Shown in pieces: positions 9,166 through 63,784 of a stretch of 64,000 nucleotides of DNA (position 1 is the first letter of the stretch; each line of letters begins with the position of its first letter). The notes beneath the pieces are model-generated. The model was not told where the DNA came from. It saw only the letters and a program-made list of their open reading frames with translations, and did no database searches. The position numbers and the translations under genes are program-made. Source of the stretch: Rhizobium sp. BK376 (lineage in GTDB: Bacteria; Pseudomonadota; Alphaproteobacteria; Rhizobiales; Rhizobiaceae); NCBI RefSeq assembly GCF_004341625.1, contig NZ_SLZG01000004.1:248001-312000 (forward strand). Direction: 5' to 3'.

Positions 9166-9250
9166 GAAAATCTCCCCAAATGAGCGCGTCAGAAACCTGT
9201 CACAGTTGCGATTGCAATGGCAAGATCAATGCCACCGCGCAAGCGCCAAA

Positions 9251-9279: not shown

Positions 9280-9310
9280 CCCAAGCAAAGATTTTTGCTG
9301 GCTTCGAAGC

Positions 9311-9874
9311 TTATTCAGCGGCCGGCTCGGCTGCTGCTGCAGCCTCTTCGGCAGCCTTGGCAGCGGCGGCTTCAGCTGCTGCCTTCGCTTCTGCGGCTTC
9401 GGCTGCTGCCTTCTCGGCTGCGAGCGCCTGGGCTGCTGCAACCTTCTCGGCTTCGATGCGTGCCTTTTCTTCGGCAACGGCGGCGCGCTCGGCGTCGTTG
9501 AGCTTGCGGGCGCGAACGCCGGTGTCTTCAACGATACGGGCAGACTTACCGCGACGGTCGCGCAGGTAGTACAGCTTGGCGCGACGGACCTTGCCGCGAC
9601 GAACGACTTCGACGCTTTCGATCATCGGCGAGTAAATCGGGAATACGCGCTCGACGCCTTCGCCGTAGGAGATCTTGCGCACGGTGAAGTTTTCCTGCAG
9701 GCCGCCGCCGGAGCGGGCGATGCAGACGCCTTCATAGGCCTGAACGCGGGTACGGGAACCTTCCGTAACCTTCACGTTGACGCGGACGGTGTCGCCCGGG
9801 GAGAATTCGGGAAGCGTGCGCTTGGCTTCGATCTTGGCGACCTGTTCGGCCTCAAGCTGCTGAATGATGTTCAT
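9311..9874 (-). CDS. rplS: 50S ribosomal protein L19 with Ala/Glu-rich tail
   Basis: L19 sits at the 30S-50S interface. The core (residues 1-125) has the expected [62 protein letters not shown] motifs. It is followed by a tail of about 55 residues of low-complexity A/E/K repeats, a feature of alphaproteobacterial L19. The start was placed at [11 protein letters not shown] because this is the conserved N-terminus; the longer frame from 9922 adds an unrelated segment. About 245 bases separate it from trmD, long enough to hold its own promoter, and I see no gene in that gap. A terminator follows. Confidence 0.96.
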
Positions 9875-10120
9875 CGGTCTAACCTTTTCAAGTTCTTCTG
9901 AAACAGCCAGAGCGCTCAACAATCATCCTTTGGTCCATGCCTCTGGATTTGGCCTTGCAGCCGGGAGCGAATTCGCCATTCTTTGTTTGCTGGCAGACGG
10001 GCTATTACCCATTCCGCGTGCGCTACTACACGAAAGCCCCGGGCTTGTCATCCCTTGCCTGACATTTTTGTGACGCGGCAGGCCGGATTCTTCGAGAAGA
10101 GACGCCGATCGGGTCCGGCT

Positions 10121-10831
10121 TCAATCCTTCGGGGACTTGGTAGGCGCCACCGGCTTGTCGAGCAGGTCCGGCCGGCGCTCCGCCGTCAGTTTCAATGCCT
10201 CCTCGCGCTGCCACTTGGCGATGGCGCCGTGATTGCCTGACGTCAGAATGGCCGGGATCTCGCGGCCTTCCCACTCCTGCGGCCTTGTATAGTGCGGATG
10301 CTCAAGCAGCCCGCCTTCGAAGCTTTCGTGCAGGCCGGAAAGATCATTGCCCATGACGCCGGGCAGGATGCGCACGATCGCGTCGAGCAGCGTCAGTGCC
10401 GCCGGCTCGCCGCCGGAGAGGATATAGTCCCCGATCGAAACCTCTTCGAGCCTGCGTGCATCGATGACGCGCTGGTCGACGCCCTCGAAGCGGCCGCAGA
10501 CGATAATGACGCCCTCGCCGTCAGCCAGTTCCCGCACCCGCTTCTGAGTCAGAGGCTTGCCACGCGGGCTCATCAGCAGCCGGGGACGGCTGTCACCCTC
10601 CGACGCATGGTCGATGGCGCGGGCAAGGACATCCGGCTTCAACACCATCCCGGCGCCGCCGCCTGCCGGCGTGTCATCGACGGTGCGATGCTTGTCGGTG
10701 GTAAAATCGCGGATCTGCAGCGTGTCGAGCGACCATTGCCCGCGCTCCATCGCGCGACCAGCGAGCGAAAAGCCGAGATGCCCCGGAAACATTTCCGGAT
10801 AAAGTGTCAGGATGGTTGCCCGGAAAGCCAT
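10121..10831 (-). CDS. trmD: tRNA (guanine37-N1)-methyltransferase
   Basis: TrmD methylates G37 next to the anticodon using S-adenosylmethionine and prevents +1 frameshifting. The 236-residue protein has the knotted SPOUT fold motifs: [19 protein letters not shown], the [24 protein letters not shown] loop, the knot region [16 protein letters not shown] with [20 protein letters not shown], and the C-terminal [22 protein letters not shown]. The ATG lies 3 bases after the rimM stop, so the two are co-transcribed as in many bacteria. Confidence 0.97.
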
Positions 10832-48879: not shown

Positions 48880-50424
48880 TCATTCGACGTCGAACTTGAC
48901 ACCCTGGGCAAGCGGCAAGGTCTTGCCGTAGTTCACGGTGTTGGTCGCCCGGCGCATATAGGCCTTCCAGGCATCCGAGCCGGATTCACGGCCGCCGCCG
49001 GTCTCCTTCTCGCCGCCGAAGGCGCCGCCGATTTCGGCACCGGACGGGCCGATATTGACGTTGGCAATGCCGCAATCCGAGCCACGCGAGGAAACGAAGG
49101 TTTCCGCTTCGCGCATGTCGTTGGTGAAGATCGACGACGACAGGCCTTGCGGCACGGCATTGTGCAGTTCGAGAACCTTGTCGAAATCGCTGTACTTGAT
49201 CACGTAGAGGATCGGCGCAAAGGTCTCGTCGACAACAGGGCCGGTCTGGGAAGGCATTTCGACCAGCGCCGGGCGCACATAATAGGCACCGGCCGCATTT
49301 CCAACCTCGACGCGATCGCCACCCGTCACGCTTCCGCCCTCGGATTTTGCTGCGGAAAGCGCATGCTGCATCTTGTCGAAAGCGGGCTTGTCGATCAGCG
49401 GGCCGACGAGCGTGCCGTTCTCCAGCGGGTTGCCGATGGTCACGGAGCCATAGGCCTTCTGCAGCCGCGGCACGAGCTTGTCATAGACGCTTTCATGGAC
49501 GAAGAGACGACGTAGCGTCGTGCAGCGCTGGCCGGCCGTGCCCATGGCGGAGAAGGCGACGCCGCGCAGCGTCAGGTCCAGGTCGGCCGTCGGGCAGACG
49601 ATCGCCGCATTGTTGCCGCCGAGCTCCAGGACGGCGCGGGCAAAGCGATTGGCAAGCCGCGGACCGACGGCGCGGCCCATGGCCGTCGAGCCTGTGGCGG
49701 ACACAAGCGGAATTCTGGGATGATCGACCAGCACTTCGCCGACATCGCGGCCACCGATCAGAAGCGTAGAAAGATTGGCCGGTGCCGAGCCGCCTTCCGC
49801 GACATAGCGCTTGAGGGCTTTCTCGAACAGCGCCTGCACGGCAAGCGCCGTCAGCGGCGTCTTCTCCGACGGCTTCCAGACCGTGGAATTGCCGCAGACG
49901 AGGGCGAGAGCCGCATTCCATGACCAGACGGCAACGGGGAAGTTGAAAGCAGAAATAATGCCGATGGCGCCGAGCGGATGCCAGCTTTCCATCATGCGAT
50001 GCTCGGAACGCTCGGTCGCGATCGTCAAACCATAAAGCTGGCGAGAAAGACCGACGGCGAAATCGCAGATATCGATCATCTCCTGCACTTCACCGAGGCC
50101 TTCCGACGTGATCTTGCCAACCTCGATCGACACGAGCCGGCCGAGTGCAGACTTTGCAGCGCGCAGTTCTTCGCCAAGCAAGCGGACCAACTCGCCGCGC
50201 TTCGGTGCCGGAACGGCTCGCCACGCCAGGAACGCCTCATGCGCCTTGTCGATCGCAGCCTTCGCGTCGGCAGCGCTGTGTTCCTTCAGCCGGCCGATCT
50301 CGGCGCCCGTGATCGGCGACGTGACCGAAAGCGTACCGCCGATATAGCGGTCGGAAGCTACGCCGAGTTCGGCGAGGACGGATTTGGTTTCCTGAGCGAG
50401 ATCGAGGGCCATGTCTTTATCCAT
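48880..50424 (-). CDS. amaB: aldehyde dehydrogenase, aminoadipate-semialdehyde type (ALDH7)
   Basis: A 514-residue ALDH family 7 enzyme. Motifs: PLGAIGIISAFNFPVAVWSWNAALALVCGNSTVWKPSEKTPLT, SATGSTAMGR, the catalytic Glu in LELGGNNA, the nucleophile Cys in TAGQRCTTLRRL, and the C-terminal GGAFGGEKETGGGRESGSDAWKAYMRRATNTVNYGKTLPLAQGV. In pseudomonads the corresponding AmaB oxidises alpha-aminoadipate semialdehyde to 2-aminoadipate in lysine and pipecolate catabolism. It follows the FAD oxidoreductase gene (AmaA-like) with 30 bases between, so the two enzymes form a short route. The start may be 50424 or the second Met, 50412. Confidence 0.9.
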   Translation of the reverse strand: MDKDMALDLAQETKSVLAELGVASDRYIGGTLSVTSPITGAEIGRLKEHSAADAKAAIDKAHEAFLAWRAVPAPKRGELVRLLGEELRAAKSALGRLVSIEVGKITSEGLGEVQEMIDICDFAVGLSRQLYGLTIATERSEHRMMESWHPLGAIGIISAFNFPVAVWSWNAALALVCGNSTVWKPSEKTPLTALAVQALFEKALKRYVAEGGSAPANLSTLLIGGRDVGEVLVDHPRIPLVSATGSTAMGRAVGPRLANRFARAVLELGGNNAAIVCPTADLDLTLRGVAFSAMGTAGQRCTTLRRLFVHESVYDKLVPRLQKAYGSVTIGNPLENGTLVGPLIDKPAFDKMQHALSAAKSEGGSVTGGDRVEVGNAAGAYYVRPALVEMPSQTGPVVDETFAPILYVIKYSDFDKVLELHNAVPQGLSSSIFTNDMREAETFVSSRGSDCGIANVNIGPSGAEIGGAFGGEKETGGGRESGSDAWKAYMRRATNTVNYGKTLPLAQGVKFDVE

Positions 50425-50454
50425 TTCTTGTTTTGATCGATCGTATCGCCGCTC

Positions 50455-51738
50455 TCAAAAGCGGGCATCTGCAAAGTGCGCCACCTGGGCGCCGGCTTCG
50501 TACCACATTTCCTTGACGGCACGGAAGCTGGGCTCGCGTGGGTCGGTCAACGGCAGCGGTAGATCCGCTTCGGCAAGCTCCCCCAGAATAAGGCTGGCGA
50601 GCGTCTTGCCGAAGACCGTGCCAGGCGCGATCCCGCGGCCATTATAGCCGGAAAACCCGACGACATTCGGCGCAAACTTGTGAAAGCGCGGCAGCGCATC
50701 CTCGGTCATGCCGATCTTGCCGTACCATTCGCATTCGAACTCGATATCGCCTATTTGCGGAAACAGCTTCTTCAGCGAGCGCTTCGCCCAGCTCTTGTGA
50801 ACCGAAAGCCCGGTATTGCGTAGGGCGCCGACGCTGCCGAAGACGAGGCGACCCGCCTGGTCCATGCGGAAGGAGGACAGGATCTCCTTCGTATCCCAAA
50901 CACCCTCCCGGTTGGGCAGGATGGATATACGCAAATTGCCGCCGAGCGGCACGGTGGCAAAATTGAAATAGGGCAGATGCACCTGCTCGGAGCGAACCTG
51001 CTCCCAGGGCCCAGTGCTATAGGCATCCGTCGAAACGATGATCCAGTCCGCCGTAACGCTGCCCGTCGCGGTCTTCACCATCCAACGGTCGCCATTGCGC
51101 TCGGTCGCGGTAACACGGCTGCCCGTATGGATCGTGATGCCGGCCTTGACGGCCGCATCGGCAAGTCCGCGCGCATAGGCAAGCGGCTGCAGCGTACCAG
51201 CCCGCATATCGAGCAAGGCGCCCGCATAGACTGAACTGCCGACCCGGCGTGCAGTTTCCGCAGCGTCCAGAATGTTGACAGGTGCGCCGCGGCGCCCCCA
51301 TTGTTCCGCCCGCGCCTCGATTTCCTTCAGCCCGTCACGGCCGACGGCACAATGCAGCGTGCCGTTCTTCTCCAGCTCGCAGGCAATCCCGTGCTTTTCG
51401 ATCAGCGTCTTCACGAGAACAGGCGCATTGCCGAGCATATCGAGCAATCGCTCGCCGTAGACGGGGCCTAGCACGCCCGGCAGATCATCCGGCATCACCC
51501 ACATGCCGGCATTGATCAGCCCGACATTTCGCCCGGCCCCGCCAAAACCGATCTCGTTGGCCTCGAGCAGAACCACCTTGGTCCCGGCTTCCGCTAGATG
51601 CAGCGCCGAGGACAGCCCTGTATAGCCGCCGCCGACGATCACCACGTCGGCAGTAACGGCGCCTGCGAGCGGGCCGGTCTTCGGCGGTGGCGGAGCAGTC
51701 TTTTCCCATAGGCCGTGGGAACGCGGATCATTGAGCAT
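50455..51738 (-). CDS. amaA: FAD-dependent amino-acid oxidoreductase, AmaA (pipecolate oxidase)-like
   Basis: A 427-residue DAO-type flavoprotein. The dinucleotide-binding motif DVVIVGGGYTGLSSALHLAEAGTKVVLLEANEIGFGGAGRNVGLI is near residue 30, and a C-terminal FAD motif is VVGFSGYNGRGIAPGTVFGKTLA. The pairing with an ALDH7 gene supports L-pipecolate oxidase (AmaA) over other DAO family members; this is inference from synteny. The start at MLNDPRSHGLWEKTA is used because the region before it has no clear ribosome binding site. It is divergent from a stand-alone Lrp/AsnC-type ligand-binding protein. Confidence 0.82.
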   Translation of the reverse strand: MLNDPRSHGLWEKTAPPPPKTGPLAGAVTADVVIVGGGYTGLSSALHLAEAGTKVVLLEANEIGFGGAGRNVGLINAGMWVMPDDLPGVLGPVYGERLLDMLGNAPVLVKTLIEKHGIACELEKNGTLHCAVGRDGLKEIEARAEQWGRRGAPVNILDAAETARRVGSSVYAGALLDMRAGTLQPLAYARGLADAAVKAGITIHTGSRVTATERNGDRWMVKTATGSVTADWIIVSTDAYSTGPWEQVRSEQVHLPYFNFATVPLGGNLRISILPNREGVWDTKEILSSFRMDQAGRLVFGSVGALRNTGLSVHKSWAKRSLKKLFPQIGDIEFECEWYGKIGMTEDALPRFHKFAPNVVGFSGYNGRGIAPGTVFGKTLASLILGELAEADLPLPLTDPREPSFRAVKEMWYEAGAQVAHFADARF

Positions 51739-51922
51739 GGATCGGTCCAGTTGGTCTGATAATCGGGCTACATTAGCGCTCCCGATGCCGTCACGAAAGC
51801 GGCAATACCGACACGCCACAGGCTTGACGCGTCAACGGAATAACTTGCATGGAAGGGCCGCTTTCGACCATTATGCACCCAAACCAACGGCCCGAACGCC
51901 GGCAACAATCCAGGACAACTCC

Positions 51923-52159
51923 ATGAAGCCCATTTTCGTCCAGCTCCAATGCGCCCCCGGCAAAACCTACGATGTCGCCGACGCCATCTACCAGACGGAA
52001 CTGGTCTCGGAGCTCTATTCGACGAGCGGCGAGTACGACCTGCTGCTCAAGGTCTACATCAAGGAAGAACAGGATATCGGTAAGTTCATCAACGACCATA
52101 TCGCCAATATTCCGGGTATTATCCGCTCGCTGACGACACTGACCTTCCGCGCATTCTAA
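51923..52159 (+). CDS. stand-alone Lrp/AsnC ligand-binding (RAM) domain protein
   Basis: A 78-residue protein covering only the RAM/AsnC effector domain (MKPIFVQLQCAPGKTYDVADAIYQTELVSELYSTSGEYDLLLKVYIKE...IPGIIRSLTTLTFRAF), without the DNA-binding helix-turn-helix. Such stand-alone domains bind amino acids and can modify full-length Lrp-type regulators or form multimers. It is divergent from amaA, so a role in sensing an amino acid for that operon is a fair guess. About 185 bases lie between the two starts, with room for the operator. Confidence 0.88.
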   Translation: MKPIFVQLQCAPGKTYDVADAIYQTELVSELYSTSGEYDLLLKVYIKEEQDIGKFINDHIANIPGIIRSLTTLTFRAF

Positions 52160-52365: not shown

Positions 52366-53577
52366 ATGGCTTTGGCTGAGATGCACACATCCGACGTGAC
52401 GATCGAGGATCACGCTCATCCGCTGATCGTCCATGTCGTCCGGCAATTCCTGCCAAACAAGGGCGGCCTGGAAGACGTCGTTGCCAATCTTTGCCGCCAA
52501 TTGCTGACCCGCGGCTATCGCGTGCGCGTGGTGACCTGCAACTCGCTCTTTTCCAATCCGGAACTGGAGCTTCCCGCCAGCGAAACCATCGACGGCATCG
52601 AGGTCGTTCGGATTCCCTGGTCCGGCAGCAGCCGCTATCCCCTTGCGCCGCAGGTCTTCAAGCATCTGGCCGACGCGGACCTCGTCCATGTCCATGCCGT
52701 CGATTTCTTCTTCGATGCGCTCGCCTGGGGCAAGCTGCTCCACGGCCGGCCGATGGTCGCGACCACCCACGGCGGCTTCTTCCACACGCCGAAATACGCG
52801 TCAATCAAGAAGGTGTGGTTCAGGACGCTGACGAGAATATCCGCCTCAGCCTACGAGCGGCTGATCTGCTGCAGCCAATCCGACGAACGATTGTTTTCCG
52901 GCATTGCCGTAAGCCGCACGCGGCTGATCGAGAACGGCGCGGATGTGTCCAAATTCGCCAACTGCGCAGCACTCGAAGCCCGCCGGCGCATCGTCACGAT
53001 CGGCCGTTTCTCGGTAAACAAGCGGCTTGAACGCCTGCTCGACGTCATGCGAGTGCTGGCCGACCGCCATCCGGACTGGCATCTCGACATAATAGGCGCT
53101 GTCTCCGATCTGGATCAGCCGACGCTGGAACGGGAGATCGCCGAACGCAATCTCGGCCGCCATGTCTCGCTGCACGTCGCGATCGACAATTGTGCCATCC
53201 GCAACACGATCGCCCGCGCCTCGCTCTTCGCCTCCGCTTCGGACTATGAAGGCTTCGGCCTCGTGGCCATCGAGGCAATGAGCGCCGGCCTGCTGCCGGT
53301 CCTCAATCCGAACGAAGCCTTCAAGGCGCTCTCCGAGCGGCATCCGCACCTCATGCTGGCGGATTTTTCAGAGCCTCAGACGGCGGCTCAGGCATTGGAG
53401 ATCGCTTTCGAGCGCCTGCAGATAGATGGTCTCGCGGTTCGCGAACAACTCACCAGAGGCGCTGCGGAATATGCCTGGGACCGTGTCGCGCAGCGCTATA
53501 TCGACCTCTATGAGGAAGCGCTCAGCTCCACCAAGGCGAAGCCTCAGCCCTTGCGCCACCGCGGCCAGGTCGCATAG
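52366..53577 (+). CDS. glycosyltransferase, GT4 (GT-B) family
   Basis: A 403-residue GT-B enzyme. The N-terminal domain starts IVHVVRQFLPNKGGLEDVVANLCRQLLTRGYRVRVVT (the glycine-rich G-G-L-E/x motif), and the C-terminal nucleotide-sugar domain has IVTIGRFSVNKRLERLLD and SDYEGFGLVAIEAMSAGLLPV, the E-x7-E donor motif. It is the first plus-strand gene of the glycan region. The acceptor and donor sugars are unknown. The 3' end overlaps the convergent GT2 gene by 34 bases. The upstream 206 bases contain no supported gene. Confidence 0.93.
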   Translation: MALAEMHTSDVTIEDHAHPLIVHVVRQFLPNKGGLEDVVANLCRQLLTRGYRVRVVTCNSLFSNPELELPASETIDGIEVVRIPWSGSSRYPLAPQVFKHLADADLVHVHAVDFFFDALAWGKLLHGRPMVATTHGGFFHTPKYASIKKVWFRTLTRISASAYERLICCSQSDERLFSGIAVSRTRLIENGADVSKFANCAALEARRRIVTIGRFSVNKRLERLLDVMRVLADRHPDWHLDIIGAVSDLDQPTLEREIAERNLGRHVSLHVAIDNCAIRNTIARASLFASASDYEGFGLVAIEAMSAGLLPVLNPNEAFKALSERHPHLMLADFSEPQTAAQALEIAFERLQIDGLAVREQLTRGAAEYAWDRVAQRYIDLYEEALSSTKAKPQPLRHRGQVA

Positions 53578-54500
53578 CCTTCTATGATGCCGGTCAGCCA
53601 GGCACGCTTGTACTGCGCGGCCGCCTTGTCGCTGCGGAGCGCCGCGATCAGCCAACTGCCGAAGGGCCGCGCCAGCCGATAGAGGAAATAGGGGAAGGGA
53701 AAGCGCTGCTTGCGCATCAGTGCCCCGAAGCCCCGGCCATACTTGCGGGCTCGCTCGATCTGCTTCGGTCCCATCTCGCTCGTCACCTGATCGTGGTGGA
53801 CGATGAGACTGGGAAAATACATCAGCGACAATCCGCCGGCGATGGCTCTCAGCAGAAAGTCGGCCTCCTCACCGCTCTGAAACGGCGATGACGCGCCGAC
53901 GCCCAGATCCTCGTCGAAACCGCCGATCACGCCGAGCGCCGCATGGCGCACGAAGATGCTGTTGGAATTGCCGCACTTCAGATAGTTCCGGCGGGTGATC
54001 GCGAGCTTCTCGTCACCGGTGGGGCTGACAGAGGACCGACCTGCTGCATCGAGCGTCCGGCCGGTGATGATAGACAACGCGGAATTTGCCGCAAAAAGCC
54101 GGTTCGCGACTTCGAGCGTATCGGGCTCGTACCAGCAATCGTCGTCGGGAAAGCAGATATAGGTGCCGGTCGCAATCGCCATCCCGTTGTTGCGCGCGCG
54201 CGAAATACCCCGCTCGGACCGGATATGGCGAATGGTGAAGAAGGGCGAATGGCCCTCCACCAGACCGACGAGACGGTCGTCCAGGTTCTGGTCGACAAGG
54301 ATCACTTCGAAATCGGCGTATCGCTGGACCTTCAGCGACGCGAACAGCCTCTCGAGCTGATCAGACCGATCAACCGTACAAACGATCAGGCTGAACAACG
54401 GATACTCTCCGCGGCAAAGGTTCCGGCAGATAATGTCAGGCGAAACATGGGGCTCTGGGGCAGTAAAACAACAATTCGCTAAAGAGTAGGAGGTAAACAT
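53544..54500 (-). CDS. glycosyltransferase, GT2 (GT-A) family
   Basis: A 318-residue GT-A enzyme. After a variable N-terminus it has FSLIVCTVDRSDQLERLFASLKVQRYADFEVILVDQN (nucleotide-binding start), RGISRARNNGMAIATGTYICFPDDDCWYEP with the D-x-D motif (DDD), and a later GGFDEDLGVGASSPFQSGEEADFLLRAI (the ED-type acceptor loop). The start is uncertain: ATG at 54500 or 54533; the conserved core begins well inside either. It is divergent from the flippase gene and convergent with the GT4 gene. Confidence 0.9.
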   Translation of the reverse strand: MFTSYSLANCCFTAPEPHVSPDIICRNLCRGEYPLFSLIVCTVDRSDQLERLFASLKVQRYADFEVILVDQNLDDRLVGLVEGHSPFFTIRHIRSERGISRARNNGMAIATGTYICFPDDDCWYEPDTLEVANRLFAANSALSIITGRTLDAAGRSSVSPTGDEKLAITRRNYLKCGNSNSIFVRHAALGVIGGFDEDLGVGASSPFQSGEEADFLLRAIAGGLSLMYFPSLIVHHDQVTSEMGPKQIERARKYGRGFGALMRKQRFPFPYFLYRLARPFGSWLIAALRSDKAAAQYKRAWLTGIIEGYATWPRWRKG

Positions 54501-54582
54501 TAAGGTATCTGAAATAGCGGCCGCGCTATTCAAAGATCATCTCGTTTAAAAACGATTGAAGAGTGCGGAGACGATCGCCTTC
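54501..54582. promoter_or_regulatory. short divergent region with two inverted repeats
   Basis: Between the GT2 and flippase starts: AATAGCG-GCCG-CGCTATT (54513-54530, perfect 7-bp arms) and TCGTTT-AA-AAACGA (54542-54555). These may be operator sites or part of overlapping promoters. If GT2 starts at 54533 the first repeat lies in its coding part. Confidence 0.45.
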
Positions 54583-56097
54583 ATGACGAAGAGCATCATG
54601 GCAAATTCGGCATTGAACGCGGCGGCGGGCCTGACCCTGCTTGCCACCGGCTTTGCCTGCTCGATCATCGCGGCCCGCCTGCTTGGCCCGCAGGCCAACG
54701 GCGTCATCGCTTTCTCCCTTTGGCTGGTGACGACAGGCTCGCTGGTTGCGGAACTCGGTACCGGCATCACACTGCTGAGGCTGCTGCCGCAGCTGAAGGT
54801 GCAGGGATATTCGGCCGAAGAACGGCGCGGCTTTGCCGCCTACCTCATGCAGCCGACGATCGTTTCGACCCTGATCCTGCTGGTCGGCTATACGCTTTTC
54901 CAACTGGCTGCCGAAAATCAGCATTGGGCAACCGACGAACCGTCCGTCATCGTCGTGACCGGTGTGCTGTTCCTGACGCAGTCGCTCGGCGCCTATACCA
55001 AGAACTACCTGATCGGCGAGCAGCAGCTCACCGGCTTCTTCCGCCTGACGATATGGAGCTCGGTGCTGCAGCTGGCAACTGTCCTGATCGGCGCGATATT
55101 CTTCGGCATCGGCGGTGCTCTGGCGGGCTATGTGGCGGGCGCGCTTCCGATGTTCTTCTACACGCTGAGGGTCGCCGCCGCCCGCAAGAATGCCTGCGGC
55201 ATCGGCCTTGGCTATCTCGTAAATTCCTCGCTGATCCTGTCCGTCGAGTTCATCAACAGCTCGGTCTTCCTCAACCGCATCGAACTGGTCTTTCTCCAGA
55301 AATACTGGGGCATCGAGGCCGTCGGCTTCTATGCGGTCGGCCTGTCGGTTGCCAATCTGGCGCTGCAGCTTCCCGTGCAGCTCAGCGGCAGCCTGCTGCC
55401 CTACTATTCGGAGAAGATCCATTCGCAGGGATCGGCCAAGCTCCCGATCAGCGTTTTCGACGGCGTGGTGCGCAGCATCTCCTATATCACCCTGCCGATG
55501 AGCTTCGGCCTTGCCGCCATCGCGCCGGCCCTGGTCGTCGCCGTCTTCGGCAAGCCGTTCGAGCCGAGCGGCAACATGGTCGCCCTGCTGGCGCTGACCG
55601 CGACGCCTTACGTCTTCATGCAGATCTGCACGCAATATTTCTATTCCATGGATCGCATGAGGGAGCGCACGATCATCGGCATCGTCGCCAGCGTCGTCAT
55701 GGTGCTCGGCTGCTTGGCTGCCGTTCCCTCGTGGGGCGGGGAGGGCGCTGCACTGGTGCGTCTCGTCGCCTTCACCGTCATGTGCGTGCTCATGGTTCGC
55801 CGCATGGAATTCGAAGGGTCCATGCAGGCGATGTTCATGACGATCGTCAAGGTAACTGCTGCCTCTGTTCTATGCGCCGTGGTCGCCTACGGCTTCATCC
55901 ATGCGATGCCGACCATGCCCGGTCTGGTCATCGCTATCGCTGCAGGCGCTCTGATCTACTTCCTGGTACTTCGGCTGCTGAACGCCGTTCCCCAGGACGA
56001 TATCGAGATCCTGCAGCAAATCGCCGCGCGTCTGCCCCGTCGCGCACATCCCTTTGCCAATCATGCGCTGGCGCTTCTTGCGCCGAGGAGAGCTTGA
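54583..56097 (+). CDS. polysaccharide flippase, Wzx/MATE-like (MVF/PST family)
   Basis: A 504-residue membrane protein with about 12-14 hydrophobic segments. The N-terminal segment AAGLTLLATGFACSIIAARLLGPQANGVIAFSLWLVTTGSLVAELGTG is typical of the PST family of O-antigen/exopolysaccharide flippases. A further segment GIEAVGFYAVGLSVANLALQLP is another family feature. It would flip lipid-linked sugar units across the inner membrane. ATG 54583 is used; ATG 54598 is a close alternative. The next gene starts 10 bases later, so the two form an operon. Confidence 0.9.
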   Translation: MTKSIMANSALNAAAGLTLLATGFACSIIAARLLGPQANGVIAFSLWLVTTGSLVAELGTGITLLRLLPQLKVQGYSAEERRGFAAYLMQPTIVSTLILLVGYTLFQLAAENQHWATDEPSVIVVTGVLFLTQSLGAYTKNYLIGEQQLTGFFRLTIWSSVLQLATVLIGAIFFGIGGALAGYVAGALPMFFYTLRVAAARKNACGIGLGYLVNSSLILSVEFINSSVFLNRIELVFLQKYWGIEAVGFYAVGLSVANLALQLPVQLSGSLLPYYSEKIHSQGSAKLPISVFDGVVRSISYITLPMSFGLAAIAPALVVAVFGKPFEPSGNMVALLALTATPYVFMQICTQYFYSMDRMRERTIIGIVASVVMVLGCLAAVPSWGGEGAALVRLVAFTVMCVLMVRRMEFEGSMQAMFMTIVKVTAASVLCAVVAYGFIHAMPTMPGLVIAIAAGALIYFLVLRLLNAVPQDDIEILQQIAARLPRRAHPFANHALALLAPRRA

Positions 56098-56107
56098 GGA
56101 GAAAGTC

Positions 56108-58000
56108 ATGGCTGCTCGGGAAGCCATCAAGAATCACTACGAAACCGTGGAGGAAGGCCCTGTGGAAACACTCTCTTTCTCCGGCGCAGCTATGCCGGTC
56201 ACCTTTTCCGGCACTGTCGGCCTGTTCACGCCGGCCGTAAAACCGACCGCCCCCGTGGCTGTCCTCTTCCTCAGCCCATGGGGCTTTGAAGAAATGTGCA
56301 TGCGCAAATTCTGGCGCATCCTGGCAGAGGACCTATCAGCGGCGGGAATTGCAAGCCTTCGCTTCGACTATGCCGGAACCGGCGATGCGCTGGATGTTTC
56401 CGAGGACAAAGGCCTCTCCATATGGAGTGAAACGGCCCTGGCTGCGGCAGCAACGCTGAAGTCCCTCGCCGGCTGCGAACGTGTGATCCTTGTCAGTCAA
56501 GGCCTCGGCAGCGCCATCGCGCTTGACATTGCCGAGCGCCTCCATGCGGTCGAAGGCATCGCTTTTCTTGCACCGACCATCTCCGGCCGTTTCTATCTGC
56601 GCGAACTCTCCGTCTGGTCGAAGATGATCGACGAGAGCATGGGCCTCAGCGAAGGCCAGAGGGAGCAGAGCGACGGCATATGGGTTGCCGGCCTGAAGAT
56701 GCCGGAGCAGATCGCTGCCGATATCCGCAAGCTCAACCTGGCAAGCCTATCAAAATTTCCGGCACCAGCGGGTCTGGTTCTGACCCGCCCCGGCCGCCCC
56801 AACGATGCGGAATTTGCCACTCGCCTGAAAGACCTTGGCGGCCGCATCGAACAGGGGGTCTACGACGGCTACGACGAACTCGTTTCCAATCCGACCATCG
56901 CCACCATGCCGCTCGACGCCGGTCAGCGAGTAGCGAATTGGGTGCGTTTGGTAGCCGCGGCCCTCCCGGCAAAGACGTCCCGGAAGGCGACCCGCCCTGC
57001 CCGCGCGGAGCCATTGGTCGGCGACGATTTCCGCGAGACGCCGCTTCGCCTCGGCGATGGCGACCGCATGTTCGGCATTCTTTGCGAACCGACGGGCGTG
57101 CGCACCGGCGCGACCGCGATCCTGCTCACGACAGCCTATGACCGTCACGCCGGCTGGGGCCGGACGACGGTTGCCATGGCGCGCAACCTTGCCCGCAGCG
57201 GCATTCCCTCGCTGCGCTTCGATACGGCAAACGTGGCAGACAGCCCGCCGCAGCCGGGCGCGCCGGAGCAGGTTCTCTACTCCGAGGCACAATATCGCGA
57301 TGTGGCGGATGCCTTTAACCTCATCGAAGCGCGCAAGCTCTTGCCCGCCTTCGTGGTGGGGCGATGCAGCGGCGGCTATCTGGGCTTCCAGGCGGCGGTC
57401 CGTGACCAGCGCTGCAGTGGTCTCATTACCGTCAACCCCTACGCCTTCCATTGGGATCAGAACAACTCGGTGGATGAAGCGCTGCGCTTCGTGCCGCGAT
57501 CACTCGAAACCTATGGCCAGAAGTTCCTGCAGGTCGAGACGCTGAAGCGCCTCCTCAATGGCTCGGTCGATACCGGCAGCGCTGTGCGCAATATCCTGAC
57601 ATCGCTATTGCGCCGTGTTGCGCAGCTGCGGCAGCCCTTGCTCGACAAGTTTTCCTTCCTGTCGCGCGAGCACGCCACCGTCCTGAAGGGCTTCAATGTC
57701 CTGAAAAATCGGGGTGTCGAGGTATCGCTGATCTATAGCGCTCAGGATATCGGGCTCGAGCATTTCAGCCTGCATTTCGGCCGCACCGGCCAGGGGCTTC
57801 AGAAATACGGCAATGCCCGGCTGACGGTCATTCCGGACGCGGATCACAATCTGACGCCTGCTCCGGCACGCGCCATTTATGTCAGGGAAATCCAGACGAT
57901 GGCGCTACGGCTCGGCGCACGTCGGGGATCCGCGCAGGCGGCAACCGGCACGGCGGCTCAGGTCAAATCTCAAAAATACGTCGGCTACCAAGCGCCCTGA
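56108..58000 (+). CDS. two-domain alpha/beta-hydrolase with non-standard nucleophile elbows
   Basis: A 630-residue protein built from two alpha/beta-hydrolase-fold domains: residues about 45-290 (LFLSPWGFEEMCMRKFWRILAEDL, LRFDYAGTGDAL) and about 310-625 (ILLTTAYDRHAGWGRTTVAMARNLA, SLRFDTANVADSPPQ). The first elbow reads VSQGLGSA, so Ser is replaced by Gly132. The second reads VGRCSGGY, with Cys420 where Ser normally sits, and a late DADHNLTP supplies a His. The first domain is probably inactive and the second a Cys- or otherwise unusual hydrolase/transferase. It is the second gene of an operon with the flippase. Function is unknown; a role in acyl or glycan modification is inferred from context. 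The 3' end overlaps the GH2 gene by 38 bases on the other strand. Confidence 0.8.
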   Translation: MAAREAIKNHYETVEEGPVETLSFSGAAMPVTFSGTVGLFTPAVKPTAPVAVLFLSPWGFEEMCMRKFWRILAEDLSAAGIASLRFDYAGTGDALDVSEDKGLSIWSETALAAAATLKSLAGCERVILVSQGLGSAIALDIAERLHAVEGIAFLAPTISGRFYLRELSVWSKMIDESMGLSEGQREQSDGIWVAGLKMPEQIAADIRKLNLASLSKFPAPAGLVLTRPGRPNDAEFATRLKDLGGRIEQGVYDGYDELVSNPTIATMPLDAGQRVANWVRLVAAALPAKTSRKATRPARAEPLVGDDFRETPLRLGDGDRMFGILCEPTGVRTGATAILLTTAYDRHAGWGRTTVAMARNLARSGIPSLRFDTANVADSPPQPGAPEQVLYSEAQYRDVADAFNLIEARKLLPAFVVGRCSGGYLGFQAAVRDQRCSGLITVNPYAFHWDQNNSVDEALRFVPRSLETYGQKFLQVETLKRLLNGSVDTGSAVRNILTSLLRRVAQLRQPLLDKFSFLSREHATVLKGFNVLKNRGVEVSLIYSAQDIGLEHFSLHFGRTGQGLQKYGNARLTVIPDADHNLTPAPARAIYVREIQTMALRLGARRGSAQAATGTAAQVKSQKYVGYQAP

Positions 58001-60437
58001 CCTGACCAGTCGGCGCCGCATCGAGCGGCGTGTCTATCCTGGCAAAGAGCCTCACCCGGCGAAGAGCGCCGGGTGCAAGATGAAACCAGTCGTCCTCGGC
58101 GCGATAGCCCGGCAGGTCCATATGCACCGCTTGGGCAAACCGGTCGGTCTGCAGATCCAGAAACCAGTCGCTCTCGACCTGAACGGCCTTTGCCGCAATC
58201 TCGGCAACATGGAATGCCTTCGCCCTGCCGAGCGGAAAGTGAAACGCCTCGGCGACGAGGGCGCCGGTCGCGCGAGAATGCAGCCTTGCGACCGTGACGT
58301 CATGCGAGGGCGGACCGAAGCGGAAGGCATAGGTCGTGTCGAAGAAGGCGCCGAAAAGATCGGTGCAGGCGATATTCTCCTTGGCTCTGGCGCCGATCGA
58401 CAATTCTCGGCGTCCGCTGACCACGGTTTGCTGTCCGTCGCGCAGGCAGGCAACACTCAGATCGAGATCCAGCGCGCTGCCCAATTCGTTGATGACGTGA
58501 ATGTCGAGGCCATTCGTGCCCTCATCCGTCAACAGCACCTGCACCGGCCGGAAGGCACGTCGTAGACCGTACCAGACGGGCTTGGGCTCGCCGGTTGAAT
58601 CAATCACGCCCCAGCCGGGACCCGGCAGCAGATCCTGCAGCGTCCAGACGAGTGCGCCATTGCAGCCCGAGCCGGCCCGCCGCCATTCCGCATAGGTCGC
58701 CTCGGCAACTTCACCAGTAACGGCGCGTGAGAGGTCGAGATAAAGCTCAGGGTCCTCCCGGCGAAGTATGCCGGGCTCAAATCCGTAAAGCGCATTCAGA
58801 TAGTGATCGCGAACGTCCTCGAAATCCCAGGACGCGCTTCGATCCCGGGGAACGCGGGATTTCCATTGCGGGCTATGCACTGCGGGAACAGCGAGATAGC
58901 GCTCCAGCACACGCGTCTGCGGCACATGCGCGAAGGCGAGGCTCTCGGCGGCAAAGCGGACATCGGCGCGGCGGGCGTCGTCGAGCGGCCGCATATAGGC
59001 GCCGACCCCATAATAGTGCGTCACGCCGGCGTCAGGCGAAAAGGGCATCGCCCCCCCGGACGGGGAATTCACCAAATAGGGCACATCTGGACGCACCTCG
59101 GCGACGACGGCGGGAATGACCTCCTCGGTGATCGGGCTTGCCCAGTAGCGCTCGGGCAATCCGAACATGGCGGCCTGCTGGTACATTTCGCTGCCGCCGC
59201 ATAGAACCGCCAGCGAGGGCGACAGGCGCGTGTCGAGAAGCAGCTGCCTGACTTCGGCCTCGACATGCCCGAGGAGCGTCTTGTCGTTCTTCGGATAGTC
59301 GAAATTGGCAAGCATGCAGTCCTGCCAGACCAGAATGCCGAGCTCATCGCAAAGGCGGAAAAAGTCCGGCGTCTCATAGGCCATGGTTCCGCCGATGCGG
59401 ATCATGTTCATGTCGGCCGCCGCCGCCGAAGCGATCCAGGGCGCGTAGATTTCGCGGCTTCCGCCGAGCCGGACAATGTCCTCCGTCGTCCAGACGGCGC
59501 CGCGGCAGAAAATCCTGATACCGTTGACGATCAATGCAAAATCGCTGCCGTCGGTCCCACGATCCACTTCGATGCGGCGGAAGCCGGTTCTACCGAGATC
59601 GTGGCTCACGCCATCGATCGCGATGGACACCTCATGGAGGCGCGGCGTGCCATGCGTATGCGGCCACCACGCCTCGACATCGGCAATCCTCAGCGTCGCA
59701 ACATAGTGCCCGCCGCCGTTCTGGACAAAAGTCTGCTCGAAATCGCCGCAGCGAAGCACAGCTTCCGCAATTTCACCCTCGACGAACATCGAGGCATAGA
59801 GCCGCCCTTCGCCATCGCCCGAGAGATCCGGCCTGAGTGAAAGATCGCGGATAACGACCGGTCCCGGGCGCAGGATCGAGATCGGTCGCCAGGGGCCGGC
59901 AGGCTGAATTTCCGGACACCAGCCGGGCATGTGGCCGAGCAATGTCGTGCGGACGTTCCGCAGGCCCTGCGGCGTGATCATTTGCGGTCGCCAGCGCGCC
60001 CGTGGTCCGGGCTCCGCCAATCGCGGCTCCAGCGCGCGGAAGCAGAGCGCCAGCTCGTCGCCACCCTGCAGGGTCACAGGGACATCATAGGTCTCGAACA
60101 TGCTCTCCGACGAAAGGATCATGTCGCCGTTGAGAAAGACGTCGCAGAGCGTTGCCAATCCCTTGAACCGCAGCACGACATCTCCCGGCTGTTCGTCGAA
60201 CAGCCGACACAGATACCAGGCATCCCTGGTATTCAGCGGATAGGGATGTTCCCGGTCGAACCGACCGGCCACTTCCAGCGCCTGGGCGACGGTTCCGGGA
60301 ACGGGTGCGGGGATGAACTGCGAAGACATCGGCACGTCGGAGGGCAGCGCGCAAACGCCTTCCTCCGTCAGCACCAGATTCCACCCCTCGCTGAGCGGCC
60401 TTTCGTCAGCGCCAATCCCAGCCAAACGCCCCTGCAT
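57963..60437 (-). CDS. glycoside hydrolase family 2, beta-mannosidase-like
   Basis: An 824-residue GH2 enzyme. The N-terminal sugar-binding sandwich contains NTRDAWYLCRLF and FKGLATLCDVFLNGDMI. The (beta/alpha)8 catalytic part has MNMIRIGGTMAYETPDFFRLCDELGILVWQDCMLANFDYP, the likely acid/base Glu417 in VLCGGSEMYQQ (most mannosidases have CGNNE) and a likely nucleophile Glu498 in RFAAESLAFAHVP. It would cleave beta-mannosides or a related glycoside. No signal peptide, so cytoplasmic. It starts 15 bases after the DUF1839 stop and ends overlapping the hydrolase gene. It is the last gene of the carrier-protein operon, which is unusual for a GH2. Confidence 0.88.
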   Translation of the reverse strand: MQGRLAGIGADERPLSEGWNLVLTEEGVCALPSDVPMSSQFIPAPVPGTVAQALEVAGRFDREHPYPLNTRDAWYLCRLFDEQPGDVVLRFKGLATLCDVFLNGDMILSSESMFETYDVPVTLQGGDELALCFRALEPRLAEPGPRARWRPQMITPQGLRNVRTTLLGHMPGWCPEIQPAGPWRPISILRPGPVVIRDLSLRPDLSGDGEGRLYASMFVEGEIAEAVLRCGDFEQTFVQNGGGHYVATLRIADVEAWWPHTHGTPRLHEVSIAIDGVSHDLGRTGFRRIEVDRGTDGSDFALIVNGIRIFCRGAVWTTEDIVRLGGSREIYAPWIASAAAADMNMIRIGGTMAYETPDFFRLCDELGILVWQDCMLANFDYPKNDKTLLGHVEAEVRQLLLDTRLSPSLAVLCGGSEMYQQAAMFGLPERYWASPITEEVIPAVVAEVRPDVPYLVNSPSGGAMPFSPDAGVTHYYGVGAYMRPLDDARRADVRFAAESLAFAHVPQTRVLERYLAVPAVHSPQWKSRVPRDRSASWDFEDVRDHYLNALYGFEPGILRREDPELYLDLSRAVTGEVAEATYAEWRRAGSGCNGALVWTLQDLLPGPGWGVIDSTGEPKPVWYGLRRAFRPVQVLLTDEGTNGLDIHVINELGSALDLDLSVACLRDGQQTVVSGRRELSIGARAKENIACTDLFGAFFDTTYAFRFGPPSHDVTVARLHSRATGALVAEAFHFPLGRAKAFHVAEIAAKAVQVESDWFLDLQTDRFAQAVHMDLPGYRAEDDWFHLAPGALRRVRLFARIDTPLDAAPTGQVRALGSRRIFEI

Positions 60438-60452
60438 CTCGATGTCCCCGGC

Positions 60453-61412
60453 TCAGACTCGCTTTTCGAGTAACCCCATCATCGCATCCCACGCATCGGC
60501 CGCCGGATCAAGAGCCGTCTGCAGCGGATCGAACTTCTTGCGGGTCACGGCGCGCGCCAGCTGGAATTGGACGGATTTCGCCACTTCGGAAATCCGCCGT
60601 GCCTGCTCCGCCGCATCGCCGAACTCGCGCGACAGCCAGTCGAGATGGGTGCCGGCAAGCTCGAAATTGGCGCCGAGCTGGCGAAGCGTGTTGAAGGCAT
60701 ATTTATGGAAGAAGCCGAAGGGCCGTTCCGCAACTGCCTCGACCTGGCCCGGAAAGACGGCAGCGAAGGCGCGGATCGGATTGGCGGCAGGACGGCGAGC
60801 AAAATGGAAGGCGAGCAGCCGGCGCGCGGTCTCGCGGATATCGTCTTCGCTTGGGCTTGCATCCGGAAACTTCGCAAATTCCGTATAGGGCAGGAACGGC
60901 AGATCTTCCGCGGTCAGATGCAGCTGGAACAGGCCGTCGAAATCCTCGCCCGAGAGATGGAAGAAACCGCCATTGTGGAAATAGTCGAGCTCGCGCTTTT
61001 CCATGTCCAGCCGGTTGATGGCGACCGTCGTCTTGCCGTGCTCGCGGCGATAGCCGACGCCCTGCGTATCGGGCATGAAATAGGAATCCATCTCGACGAG
61101 GCAGAGCCGGCCGCGACCGATCTGTTCGGCGACATGCCGCTCGATGCGATCGTAAATGGCAAGCTCGGTGCAGCGGATACCGTAAAGCGCTTCGAGATCT
61201 TCCAGGGACACCTTGAAGAAGGTGAACTGATCGCCTTCGAAATCCTGCCCCATCGTGAAGCCGAGCATGGCTTCCGGCGGCAGCTTCAGGCTGTTCAGCA
61301 CCTCGATCCAAAGATCGATATAGCAATTGGTTTCCGGCCACATGCGCTCGCTGTCGTGCAGCGCATGTGGCGAATAGGCGTCGGGCGCAAGCCCTGCAAA
61401 GACGGAAGCCAT
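60453..61412 (-). CDS. DUF1839 family protein
   Basis: A 319-residue protein of DUF1839, unknown function. I note a pattern like BtrH-type (butirosin) acyl transferases: Cys30 in PETNCYIDLWIEVLNSL at the start of a helix, LCLVEMDSYFMPDTQGVGY (D109-S-Y-F-M-P), His125 (RREHGKTTVAI) and ELDYFHNGGF (D143). This is a motif-level resemblance from memory, not an alignment. In the biochemistry of BtrH an amino-acyl chain moves from a carrier protein to an amino sugar. In this operon it follows the amino acid:[carrier protein] ligase by 7 bases, so transfer from the carrier protein is a reasonable hypothesis. Confidence 0.85.
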   Translation of the reverse strand: MASVFAGLAPDAYSPHALHDSERMWPETNCYIDLWIEVLNSLKLPPEAMLGFTMGQDFEGDQFTFFKVSLEDLEALYGIRCTELAIYDRIERHVAEQIGRGRLCLVEMDSYFMPDTQGVGYRREHGKTTVAINRLDMEKRELDYFHNGGFFHLSGEDFDGLFQLHLTAEDLPFLPYTEFAKFPDASPSEDDIRETARRLLAFHFARRPAANPIRAFAAVFPGQVEAVAERPFGFFHKYAFNTLRQLGANFELAGTHLDWLSREFGDAAEQARRISEVAKSVQFQLARAVTRKKFDPLQTALDPAADAWDAMMGLLEKRV

Positions 61413-61419
61413 CGGCAGA

Positions 61420-62328
61420 TCAGCCCCAGAGCGCCTTGCGGACGCTCTTCGGCCATGCCTTCACGTCGAGGCCGTGATGATGGAACAGCGCCAAGGCAAT
61501 GCGCTCGAGGCCGAAGCCGACGCAGGCCGTATGGGCGACGCTGCCGTCTTCGAGGTTCAGGCCCCACTTCAGGCCGAAACTGTCCTGATGGTAGTTGAAG
61601 CTCATGCAGGCGGTCGGCTTGGCGGTCGAGGTGATCGGGATCAGGAGCTCGAACTTCAGGTTCTGGTCGCGCTGGTTGTTGACCAACATTTTGCCGGCGC
61701 GACCGAAGAACGGGTCGTTCGCGACATCGATTTCGACTTCAAGGCCGACCGACTTCATCATCTCGACGCCGCGATCCATCCAGCTTTGGCGGAATTCGGT
61801 GACATGCTGCTCGGTGCCCATGCAGACATATTCGCGCATGCGGAACAGCTGCTGGCGAGCCGGATCCTTGGACGGCTCATGGCGGAAGCAATAGGACTGC
61901 AGGTCGTAGAGACCACCGCCCGCCGGCAGCTTGCCGCGCTTGGCAACTGTCGGATAGAGCGGATAGCAGGCGGCCGGCGTCAGCACGATTTCGGTCGCTT
62001 CCTGGCCCTTCGTCCAGTCGTCGCCGACTTCCATGCATTTCAGCAGGCTCATATGATCCATTTCACTGCCGCAGAAGCTGTGCACCGTGCCGGCGAGCTG
62101 CGGAAAGCTCTTCATGTAGCCGCTCTTCTCGAAGATCTCGCGGTTCATACCCGGGGGAAAGCGAATGGCTTCCGCGCCGTCGGCGCCGCCGAACTTGTCG
62201 ATCAGCCGCTCGAAGGCAACGATGACATCTTCGAACTGGCCGCTGCGGCCATAGAGACCGTCAACACCCGTGTCGATGAGAAGACCGGATTCGAAGAGGC
62301 GGTCGAGAAACGAATTCTGCATATCCAT
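61420..62328 (-). CDS. amino acid--[acyl-carrier-protein] ligase, class II synthetase-like
   Basis: A 302-residue homologue of the catalytic core of seryl-tRNA synthetases without a tRNA-binding arm. Motif 2 is [27 protein letters not shown] and motif 3 is [22 protein letters not shown]121, E166 and C269 are spaced as expected for the Cys-Glu-Cys zinc site of the Bradyrhizobium/Agrobacterium amino acid:[carrier protein] ligases and of the unusual archaeal SerRS. These enzymes adenylate a small amino acid (glycine or alanine) and move it to the phosphopantetheine of a carrier protein, not to tRNA. The carrier protein is coded two genes upstream in the same operon. Confidence 0.93.
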
Positions 62329-62333
62329 GGCGA

Positions 62334-63533
62334 TTATCCCAGAAGGCTAGTGTCTTGCTTATGGACGAGCAGCATGGTCGACGTGTTGCCGAGAATGCGG
62401 TCGTTCGAGATCATCAGTTGAGCGGAATGTGCGTCGCGCAGGTGGCGACCGAGGCTGTAGGGTGTACCGTTCTTGTAGCCCATAATGCCGCAGATCAGCA
62501 TGGCGTGGTTGATGATCGGCAGGATCATCTCCGACGATGCGATCTTGACGTTGTTCATGGCGACGGCAAAGGCCATCGAAGACAGCCGGTCGGCATCCGC
62601 CTTGGCTTCCTCATAGACCTTCAGGCCGGCCACGACATTCGACTTGACCATCTGCAGCAGGCTGGAGACCTCAGCCAGGCGCAACGCACCGGGCGGCTGC
62701 TGGCCGGGCGACTTGCGGGCCGCGGCCCGAACGAAAGCCTGGGCGCGGGCAACGGCGTCGGCCGCGATCCCGTACCATACGCCGCTCCAAAGCAGGTGCG
62801 AGCTGGCCAGCATCGACTGTGCCGCGATCTCGGCAAAGGGTTTTGGTAGGATCTGTTCGGCCGGCGCTTCGCCTTTGAACAGGAAGCCGTCGGAACAGGT
62901 GCCGCGCATGCCGAGCGTGTTCCACTCGACGGTGCGATCGATCGTGTACTGGTCCTTCAGGAAAACGGTCAGAACCTGGTCGGACGATGCCGCGTCAGCA
63001 TGGGCGCGCGAAGTGATCAGGATGGCATCGGCGTGTGCGCCGTAGGAGATGACGGTCGCGTCCTTTTCCAGGAAGCAGCGGCCGTCCTCGACGCGGATGG
63101 CGCAGATGCTGTTGCGCAGATTGCCGCCGATGCCGCCTTCCGTCGTGGAGGAGGCAAGCAGCAGCTGGTCGCGGGCAACGCGGCGCATGAATTCGCGATG
63201 CCAGTCGCTCGCCGCGCCATGTTCGACAAGGCTCGTCAGCTTGATGTGATGCATGGCAAAGACCATGGCGCTTGCTGCGCAGGCCTGGCCGAGGATCGAG
63301 CAGAGCTCGGCGATCTCGGTGATCGAGGTTCCCTCGCCGCCCAATTCCGATGCGATCTGGATCGACAGGAGCCTTTCCGCGCGCATGGCGTCGACCGCCT
63401 CGCGCGGAAACCGACCGTCGGCATCGACGGCGTCAGCATGTTTGGCCGCGATCGCTGCGACGCGCGCGGCACGGGTCGACAAGTCGTCCCTGGACGACCC
63501 GTTGTCCTCGGCCATCGTCATCGCGACGCTCAT
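62334..63533 (-). CDS. acyl-CoA dehydrogenase-fold flavoprotein
   Basis: A 399-residue flavoprotein of the acyl-CoA dehydrogenase superfamily. Family segments: [48 protein letters not shown] (the T-E-x-x-x-G-G/S substrate/FAD loop), [19 protein letters not shown], and the C-terminal [24 protein letters not shown]. In many family members a catalytic Glu lies in an I-Y-E-G-T motif near the end; here the matching stretch reads ILGNT, with no Glu. It might oxidise an aminoacyl-S-carrier protein, as prolyl-carrier dehydrogenases do, or act as a monooxygenase of the fold. ATG overlaps the carrier protein stop (TGATG). Confidence 0.88.
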
Positions 63534-63784
63534 CAGGCGACCTTTCTGGAATTCAGGATCAGGTCCACCGTTTTTTCGATGGCAGCGATGCTGGCAAAGG
63601 ATTTGCGGTTCAGCAGATTGTCCGGAAACTCGATGTCGAAGGCTTCCTCGATGCCGAGCATCAGCTGGACGGACGCAAAGGAGGAAAGTCCGGTTGCATA
63701 AAGATCCGCATCGTCAGCGATCTGGTCGACCGCGACAGGCAGGCCGCCAAACTTTACCAACAGTTCGCGAATGGTCTCATTCAT
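63533..63784 (-). CDS. acyl/aminoacyl carrier protein
   Basis: An 83-residue carrier protein (MNETIRELLVKFGGLPVAVD...). The phosphopantetheine site is YATGLSSFASVQLMLGIEEAFDIEFPD: the usual D-S-L is S-S-F, with Ser35 as the likely attachment residue. Helix III follows in LLNRKSFASIAAIEKTVDLIL. This matches the dedicated carrier proteins of the amino acid:[carrier protein] ligase system more than fatty-acid ACP. The start at 63784 (MNETIRELL) has a GGATGACGGG-type sequence upstream; a longer start at 63844 is less likely. It is the first gene of the five-gene operon; it ends in a 1-base overlap with the flavoprotein gene. Confidence 0.93.
   Translation of the reverse strand: MNETIRELLVKFGGLPVAVDQIADDADLYATGLSSFASVQLMLGIEEAFDIEFPDNLLNRKSFASIAAIEKTVDLILNSRKVA

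Follow-up and report, generated by a model that had tools for sequence, protein, structure and literature searches.

The closest described system to the operon analysed here is the neighbourhood of Atu2574 in Agrobacterium, for which a note added in proof in 2010 predicted an amide bond between an amino acid and the amino group on a sugar of the cell surface, accompanied by a monooxygenation (PMC2922099). In lincosamide biosynthesis, CcbD was reported to load carrier-bound proline onto its own cysteine and then to pass it onto the amino group of a thiooctose (PMC12945683), and CtaG has been called a peptidyl transferase (PMC6772006). A survey from 2023 described the family DUF1839 as papain-like with a Cys-(Thr/Ser)-His triad and guessed that it takes part in the processing of cell wall glycans (PMC10318531). 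We analysed a stretch of 64,000 nucleotides from Rhizobium sp. BK376 (contig NZ_SLZG01000004.1, positions 248,001 to 312,000 of the forward strand; this whole stretch is called the window), which contains an operon encoding a carrier protein, a flavoprotein, an amino acid:[carrier protein] ligase, a DUF1839 protein and a GH2 glycosidase, with the gene of a double α/β-hydrolase adjoining it. Our analyses support a model according to which, on balance probably, these six proteins constitute a cytoplasmic pathway forming an amide of a carrier-bound, probably oxidised amino acid with an amine, most likely that of an amino sugar or of a glycan precursor destined for export.

An earlier note made from the letters of the window, referred to here as the original prediction, stated that no product is described, which may hold; the prediction of aminoacyl transfer to a sugar is itself not new because it has been in print since 2010 (PMC2922099). 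The literature searched, mostly without subscription journals, showed no paper with the look of an experimental follow-up on DUF1839, Atu2571, Atu2573 to Atu2575 or the aminoacyl carrier protein; Atu2573 is named in a transcriptome study (PMC11941606). As far as this literature goes, the new elements are the sixth member, the use of CcbD as a template, the distinction between two types of operon and a relationship with exosortase-type modules.

Six genes travelling as one unit

The carrier protein (83 residues; 63533..63784), the flavoprotein of the acyl-CoA dehydrogenase fold lacking the canonical base (62334..63533), the seryl-tRNA-synthetase-like ligase (61420..62328), the DUF1839 protein, predicted to be a cysteine amide synthase of the CcbD/CtaG fold (60453..61412), and the β-mannosidase-like GH2 glycosidase (57963..60437) are encoded head to tail on the minus strand by open reading frames (ORFs) that all start with ATG and are separated by -1, 5, 7 and 15 bases. 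The gene of the double hydrolase (56108..58000, plus strand) is convergent to the GH2 gene and overlaps it by 38 bases. The coordinates and gene names originally given for the five ORFs held on recheck, as did the description of gaps of at most 15 bases; the several overlaps mentioned there were wrong because only one overlap, of a single base, lies inside the operon.

The five-gene arrangement is far beyond chance, order and strand being the same in 78 of the 80 named loci, almost all of which belong to the Rhizobiaceae, and the order being kept in all 42 further loci, i.e. 36 regions chosen from 54 other DUF1839 genomes and six plasmid records. These counts were taken from tblastn because the simple gene calling used for the neighbourhoods, a rule of length and guanine-plus-cytosine content by codon position, misplaced some genes. 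Exceptions are a locus without GH2 (L066) and one lying on a contig of 6.5 kilobases (L089). For two loci (L152, L260) the best DUF1839 match was a second copy, and the order proved intact once the operon copy was used. This conservation supports the original view of the genes as one operon.

The set comprises six rather than the five genes first named, since the adjoining α/β-hydrolase always co-occurs with DUF1839. DUF1839 is present in 49 of 297 genomes of the same order, and the hydrolase occurs at full length in exactly the same genomes (49/49 vs 0/248, two weak partial matches of 85 and 48 bits in G253 being scored as absent). Fisher values computed for such counts assume independent genomes, an assumption that does not hold; within one genus (g2), DUF1839, GH2 and the hydrolase are all present in one of seven genomes and all absent from the other six. 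A close GH2 (>390 bits) was found in 48 of the 49 DUF1839 genomes and in none of the 248 others, the single DUF1839 genome lacking it (G296) having its DUF1839 gene near a contig end. The ligase exceeds its cut-off in 64 of the 297 genomes, namely in all 49 with DUF1839 and in 15 having neither DUF1839 nor a close GH2 nor the double hydrolase. All six additional DUF1839 genomes encode the hydrolase as well, including four (family f109) that fall outside the class; it is missing from none of the 55 DUF1839 genomes tested, though located away from the operon in some. In Azospirillum brasilense Sp 7 and Mycetohabitans endofungorum the six genes lie on one strand in the same order, with the hydrolase as gene six overlapping the GH2 gene by four bases. 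We show by computation that the six genes travel together as one unit.

The assignment to families is supported by curated models. The ligase scores 518 bits against NF005479 (curated cut-off 357), the carrier protein 117.6 bits against NF005480 (cut-off 72) and the DUF1839 protein 448 bits against PF08893 (gathering score 22.5), while the GH2 enzyme is recognised only by its N-terminal domain PF22666 (46.6 bits, cut-off 27). The carrier protein, a close relative of Agrobacterium Atu2571 (PDB 2jq4 and 4h2w chain C), has the pantetheine-site serine in the motif GLSSF, this serine being present in 104/104 aligned sequences. A scan of the operon for promoters and terminators yielded no signal above chance.

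Genes for EF-P, EpmA and EpmB are found just upstream of the carrier gene in many of the loci L031 to L110 and, past the end of the window, in its own genome (L123), which makes neighbours of two different protein-modifying tRNA-synthetase paralogs. We rejected these three as pathway partners, since their clusters are represented at 62 to 65 of 136 loci and at only 3 to 4 of the 55 unnamed regions.

Proposed amide formation, carrier loading and oxidation

The structural model of the DUF1839 protein (mean predicted local distance difference test score 85) suggests a chemistry for the pathway. Foldseek placed AziU2/U3, CtaG and CcbD at the top ranks, CcbD with a probability of 1.00, and VIA-align gave a Z score of 18.6 for CcbD (root mean square deviation 3.8, 282 of 319 residues aligned, 10-12 percent identity), 17.4 for AziU2/U3 and 17.1 for CtaG, the next unrelated match reaching 7.5. 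A sequence search against solved structures gave no match at E up to 10. C30 is conserved in 125 of 127 sequences and opens the helix formed by residues 30-41 in the model, the position at a helix start that is characteristic of the nucleophilic cysteine of CcbD-type synthases, C19 in CcbD itself. The histidines H125 and H146, candidates for a place in the triad, are invariant (127/127). The CcbD-like fold together with these conserved residues suggests acyl transfer, and we regard DUF1839 as a predicted amide synthase of the CcbD type, which would take the acyl group onto Cys30 and pass it to the acceptor amine as CcbD does. Transfer to a sugar-type amine, as originally proposed, is thus supported and now rests on the match between the DUF1839 and CcbD folds.

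The acyl group would be provided by the ligase, which in its relatives is reported to adenylate a small amino acid and to load it onto the phosphopantetheine of the carrier protein and may do the same here. The nearest structures in the PDB are 4h2w and 3mey, and a close relative of the carrier protein of the window is found in the entries with the solved ligase. Comparison of the ligases reveals two operon types. Type A, the type of the window, has DUF1839, while type B comprises the 15 genomes with ligase and without DUF1839, in 14 of which a flavoprotein and in 13 of which a divergent carrier gene accompany the ligase according to the simple gene calling. The solved ligase (Bll0957 in 3mey; also 4h2w) shares 48-56 percent identity with 105 type A ligases and 61-93 percent with 12 type B ligases, reaching 92-93 percent for four of these. 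In a midpoint-rooted tree built from 13 type A and 15 type B ligases (28 in all) the two types form separate groups; many type A sequences were omitted from this tree as identical copies under other locus names. We excluded four further ligase-like loci (L173-L176), which score below the family cut-off and share 30-32 percent identity with the solved ligase. By these sequence relations the crystallised ligase is a member of type B and not of the operon type studied here, so that what is known of the solved enzyme can be transferred to type A with care. The originally proposed ligase-carrier aminoacyl pathway stands, and the homology-based inference of its substrate becomes weaker than stated because the crystallised ligase is of type B.

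The type B loci have recurrent genes of their own. A protein of ~291 residues without Pfam match (cluster 40) recurs at L161-L163, L168, L171, L172, L177 and L178, and genes for an adenosine monophosphate (AMP) ligase, a short-chain dehydrogenase/reductase, a thiamine pyrophosphate enzyme and an aminotransferase recur at part of the loci.

Ligases of this kind were presented as a link to nonribosomal peptide synthesis in the title of a 2010 PNAS paper, and the carrier-bound amino acid might, as first suggested, prime a nonribosomal peptide. We consider this hardly credible, as no peptide synthetase was recognised among the annotated clusters flanking type A operons, most flanking genes being unannotated, and as the note added in proof of 2010 argues against it (PMC2922099).

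In a second step the flavoprotein would modify the carrier-bound aminoacyl group. It belongs to the acyl-CoA dehydrogenase fold and family (PF02771, PF00441). At what we take to be the position of the canonical glutamate base, all 131 flavoproteins have isoleucine, and at the presumed alternative position of the isovaleryl type 128 of 131 have serine or alanine, the positions being matched by eye in both cases. Dehydrogenases are the nearest solved relatives, the best single match, 7p98, carrying this name, and several NCBIfam matches are dehydrogenases as well. The enzyme might therefore, although we consider this unlikely, be a true dehydrogenase whose carrier-bound product is a dehydro- or imino-aminoacyl thioester. 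The residues at both base positions argue against this, as do oxygenating relatives that score about equally in the structure comparison; close behind the dehydrogenases follow a flavin adenine dinucleotide (FAD) oxidoreductase (3m9v, 4kcf; presumably KijD3), DnmZ, a nitrososynthase and DszC. Because both known base positions lack glutamate and oxygenating relatives are nearby, we suggest with modest confidence that the flavoprotein oxygenates rather than dehydrogenates the aminoacyl group.

Hydrolase, glycosidase and the probable link to glycans

The sixth gene encodes two α/β-hydrolase domains in one chain. The C-terminal half best matches exosortase-A hydrolase 1 and the N-terminal half hydrolase 2, with scores for hydrolases 1 and 2 below both curated cut-offs (69 vs 168.45 and 63.6 vs 202.75). 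An exosortase search of the genome of the window (G000) found none, one of the four genomes tested having one. The window hydrolase is a relative and not a member of the exosortase-A hydrolases 1 and 2, because it lies below the cut-offs and no exosortase was found in its genome. A fold search of the PDB with the hydrolase model returned only general α/β-hydrolases among the best 50 matches. Cys419, Asp546 and His579 of the C-terminal half (numbered from 56111) are present in 79/79 aligned sequences, while the elbow residue of the N-terminal half is variable among them. Cysteine also occupies the place of the nucleophile in exosortase-type hydrolase 1 proteins of six of seven regions examined, the motif of L251 not being readable from the ORF used and L253, which has the cysteine, lying just below the family cut-off. 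L253, from outside the order to which the 297 genomes belong, furthermore encodes a single protein of 613 residues (8405-10246) which combines a hydrolase-1-like part with a longer N-terminal part and scores just below the hydrolase 1 cut-off.

In other rhizobia the hydrolase is fused to a flippase. Single reading frames of 1101-1123 residues with the flippase N-terminal and the hydrolase C-terminal were found in 28 loci, one of which was checked against Pfam. With its probable nucleophilic cysteine, the double hydrolase may perform a further acyl transfer or a hydrolysis beside the export of the product. As a separate observation, a GINT1_N domain (PF24793) was recognised in proteins encoded close to the hydrolase and also in the vicinity of type B ligases (L208 4799-6328, L209 15471-17006, L169 14311-15888), and the same cluster is present at L163 and L166.

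The glutamates E417 and E498 of the GH2 enzyme align with the catalytic glutamates of solved β-mannosidases and are invariant (112/112), identical sequences, matches below set scores and matches covering less than 60 percent of the query having been dropped from the set. GH2 enzymes usually have asparagine just before the acid/base glutamate; here this residue is serine in 111 of 112 sequences, the solved enzyme 2vjx having asparagine. A crude hydropathy test detected no N-terminal hydrophobic segment in the 112 GH2 sequences or in the aligned sets of DUF1839, flavoprotein and hydrolase, and for this reason the six-protein pathway looks cytoplasmic. A cytoplasmic GH2 enzyme might trim or transfer a sugar on an intermediate. 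Its two retained catalytic glutamates, taken together with the peptidase-like fold of DUF1839, would also be compatible with a degradative operon salvaging glycoconjugates, in which GH2 removes the sugar and DUF1839 and the hydrolase cleave the amide or ester. We judge this very improbable given that an ATP-using loading enzyme accompanies DUF1839 in 49/49 genomes, that GH2 shows no hydrophobic export signal in the hydropathy test and that the carrier-protein-dependent synthase CcbD is among the nearest folds of DUF1839.

Next to the hydrolase gene the window encodes a polysaccharide flippase (Polysacc_synt_3; 54556..56097, plus strand), a GT2 glycosyltransferase (53544..54533, minus strand) and a GT4 glycosyltransferase (52366..53577, plus strand). 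These were originally seen as partners of the operon, a role that conservation does not bear out. For 45 of the 80 named loci, the flanks examined contain no homologue of glycan-assembly genes. Operon regions outside the Rhizobiaceae have a glycan-assembly match in 8 of 30 cases and none in five of nine families, the queries being taken from Rhizobiaceae loci only; an earlier labelling with queries from the same neighbourhoods was circular and had given higher numbers. We also rejected a glycosyltransferase as a seventh obligate member, because GT4 (E up to 1e-30) occurs in only 10 of 199 genomes, eight with DUF1839 and two without. Glycosyltransferases and flippase are variable neighbours of the operon. 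The original prediction had named the absence of both GH2 and glycan genes from relatives keeping the core as an outcome that would speak against it, of which one half is seen: GH2 is kept and the glycan genes are often absent. Beside the glycan genes, at positions 48880-52159 of the window, lie an AsnC-type regulator and ORFs that to the eye are of aldehyde-dehydrogenase and FAD-oxidoreductase type; relatives are present at some of the other loci.

Since the operon flanks are often devoid of glycan genes and GT4 is no fixed partner, the link to glycans rests mainly on the hydrolase. With the same Rhizobiaceae queries, regions around hydrolase copies not adjoining the operon have a glycan-assembly match in 12 of 19 cases vs 0 of 20 random regions of the same genomes, and in 8 of 14 cases after removal of five regions lying within ~22 kilobases of the operon. 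Some of these regions come from one genus (L208, L211, L212) and some represent second copies (L202, L217, L218, L219); the Rhizobiaceae region L204, which has glycan-assembly genes, was excluded from the set. The glycan genes may nonetheless be incidental and the product a small diffusible metabolite, namely an amide in which a modified amino acid is joined to a simple amine or to an amino sugar, as in the lincosamides. CcbD and CtaG serve small-molecule pathways, more than half of the named loci have the empty flanks described above, and the operons of Azospirillum and Mycetohabitans have few adjoining glycan genes. We nevertheless consider such a product rather unlikely, as the fused hydrolase-flippase frames and the position of distant hydrolase copies among glycan-assembly genes speak for export of a glycan, and as no conserved metabolite exporter was recognised, most flanking clusters being unannotated.

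Weight of the evidence and comparison with known systems

An exported amino sugar or glycan precursor carrying the amide remains the reading we favour, and a number of observations weigh against it. Apart from the scarcity of glycan genes beside the operon, the placement of the crystallised ligase in type B and the name of 7p98, four of the 80 named loci, in some Rhizobium strains, have no intact GH2: it is absent from L066 and matched in separate, probably broken pieces in L063, L064 and L068, which count among the 78. It is moreover hard to see what GH2 would do in a purely synthetic scheme. Published as Cys-(Thr/Ser)-His, the papain-like triad of DUF1839 is unusual and seems to differ from the Cys-His-Glu triad of CcbD. 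The acceptor amine, like the substrate and the product, is a predicted one. Finally, the operon copy of DUF1839 lacks C30, D115 and T116 in three loci (L151, L152, L260).

These C30-less copies belong to the operons of G521 and G588, where they are the two exceptions among the 127 sequences, and likewise to that of Cupriavidus metallidurans (L260). All three keep H125 and H146, and each genome also has an intact second DUF1839 copy. In G588 (L152; copies at 7449 and 12271) and L260 (16807 and 12001) the intact copy lies a few kilobases from the operon copy on the side of the hydrolase. In G521 it is on another contig (operon copy in L151 at 9477, intact copy in L255 at 124), beside ManC- and Wzc-like genes and the hydrolase. 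These positions of the second copies add to the support for the glycan link. As AziU2/U3 is, by its PDB title, a two-protein complex, an active and an inactive DUF1839 copy may perhaps act as a pair, which we offer as a lead.

If the model is correct, it adds a chemical decoration to the surface glycans of rhizobia and related bacteria with relevance for plant symbiosis and biofilms, and it suggests a function for a class of hydrolases found in other polysaccharide clusters. More speculatively, although we consider it unlikely, ligase and CcbD-like synthase might represent a new route to decorate exported polysaccharide with an oxidised amino acid, in which the hydrolase cysteine acts as the final transferase beside the flippase. 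The hydrolases 1 and 2 of exosortase clusters could then do the same job, because their genes, too, adjoin those of a carrier protein and of an AMP-forming ligase. Six co-travelling genes, a mechanistic template of solved structure and the flippase fusion make the prediction of 2010 testable.

That prediction shares with our model the carrier protein, the redox enzyme, the seryl-tRNA-synthetase paralog, Atu2574, the glycosidase and the proposed outcome, whereas the note added in proof names no hydrolase as a sixth gene and gives Atu2574 no fold (PMC2922099). In the lincosamide system with CcbD and CcbZ, a carrier-bound amino acid is likewise passed via a catalytic cysteine to the amine of an amino sugar, and the DUF1839 model shares the fold of CcbD; loading there is achieved by an adenylation domain instead of a tRNA-synthetase-like ligase, the triad seems to differ from that of DUF1839, and identity remains at 10-12 percent. 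We know of no counterpart of GH2 and the hydrolase in that system. Exosortase-A modules resemble the unit in that a carrier protein, an AMP-forming ligase and the hydrolases 2 and 1 are encoded as direct neighbours (L248 and L249, hydrolase 2 of L249 being below its cut-off); the window hydrolase differs in scoring below both cut-offs, and its genome yielded no exosortase. The type B operon of Bll0957, presumably from Bradyrhizobium judging by the gene name, also has carrier protein, flavoprotein and ligase, but in type B the carrier gene is divergent at 13 of 15 loci, and DUF1839, a close GH2 and the double hydrolase are missing. Finally, the dlt system of D-alanylation, as is proposed here, loads an amino acid onto a carrier protein from which a surface polymer is to receive it, the ligase belonging to a different superfamily.

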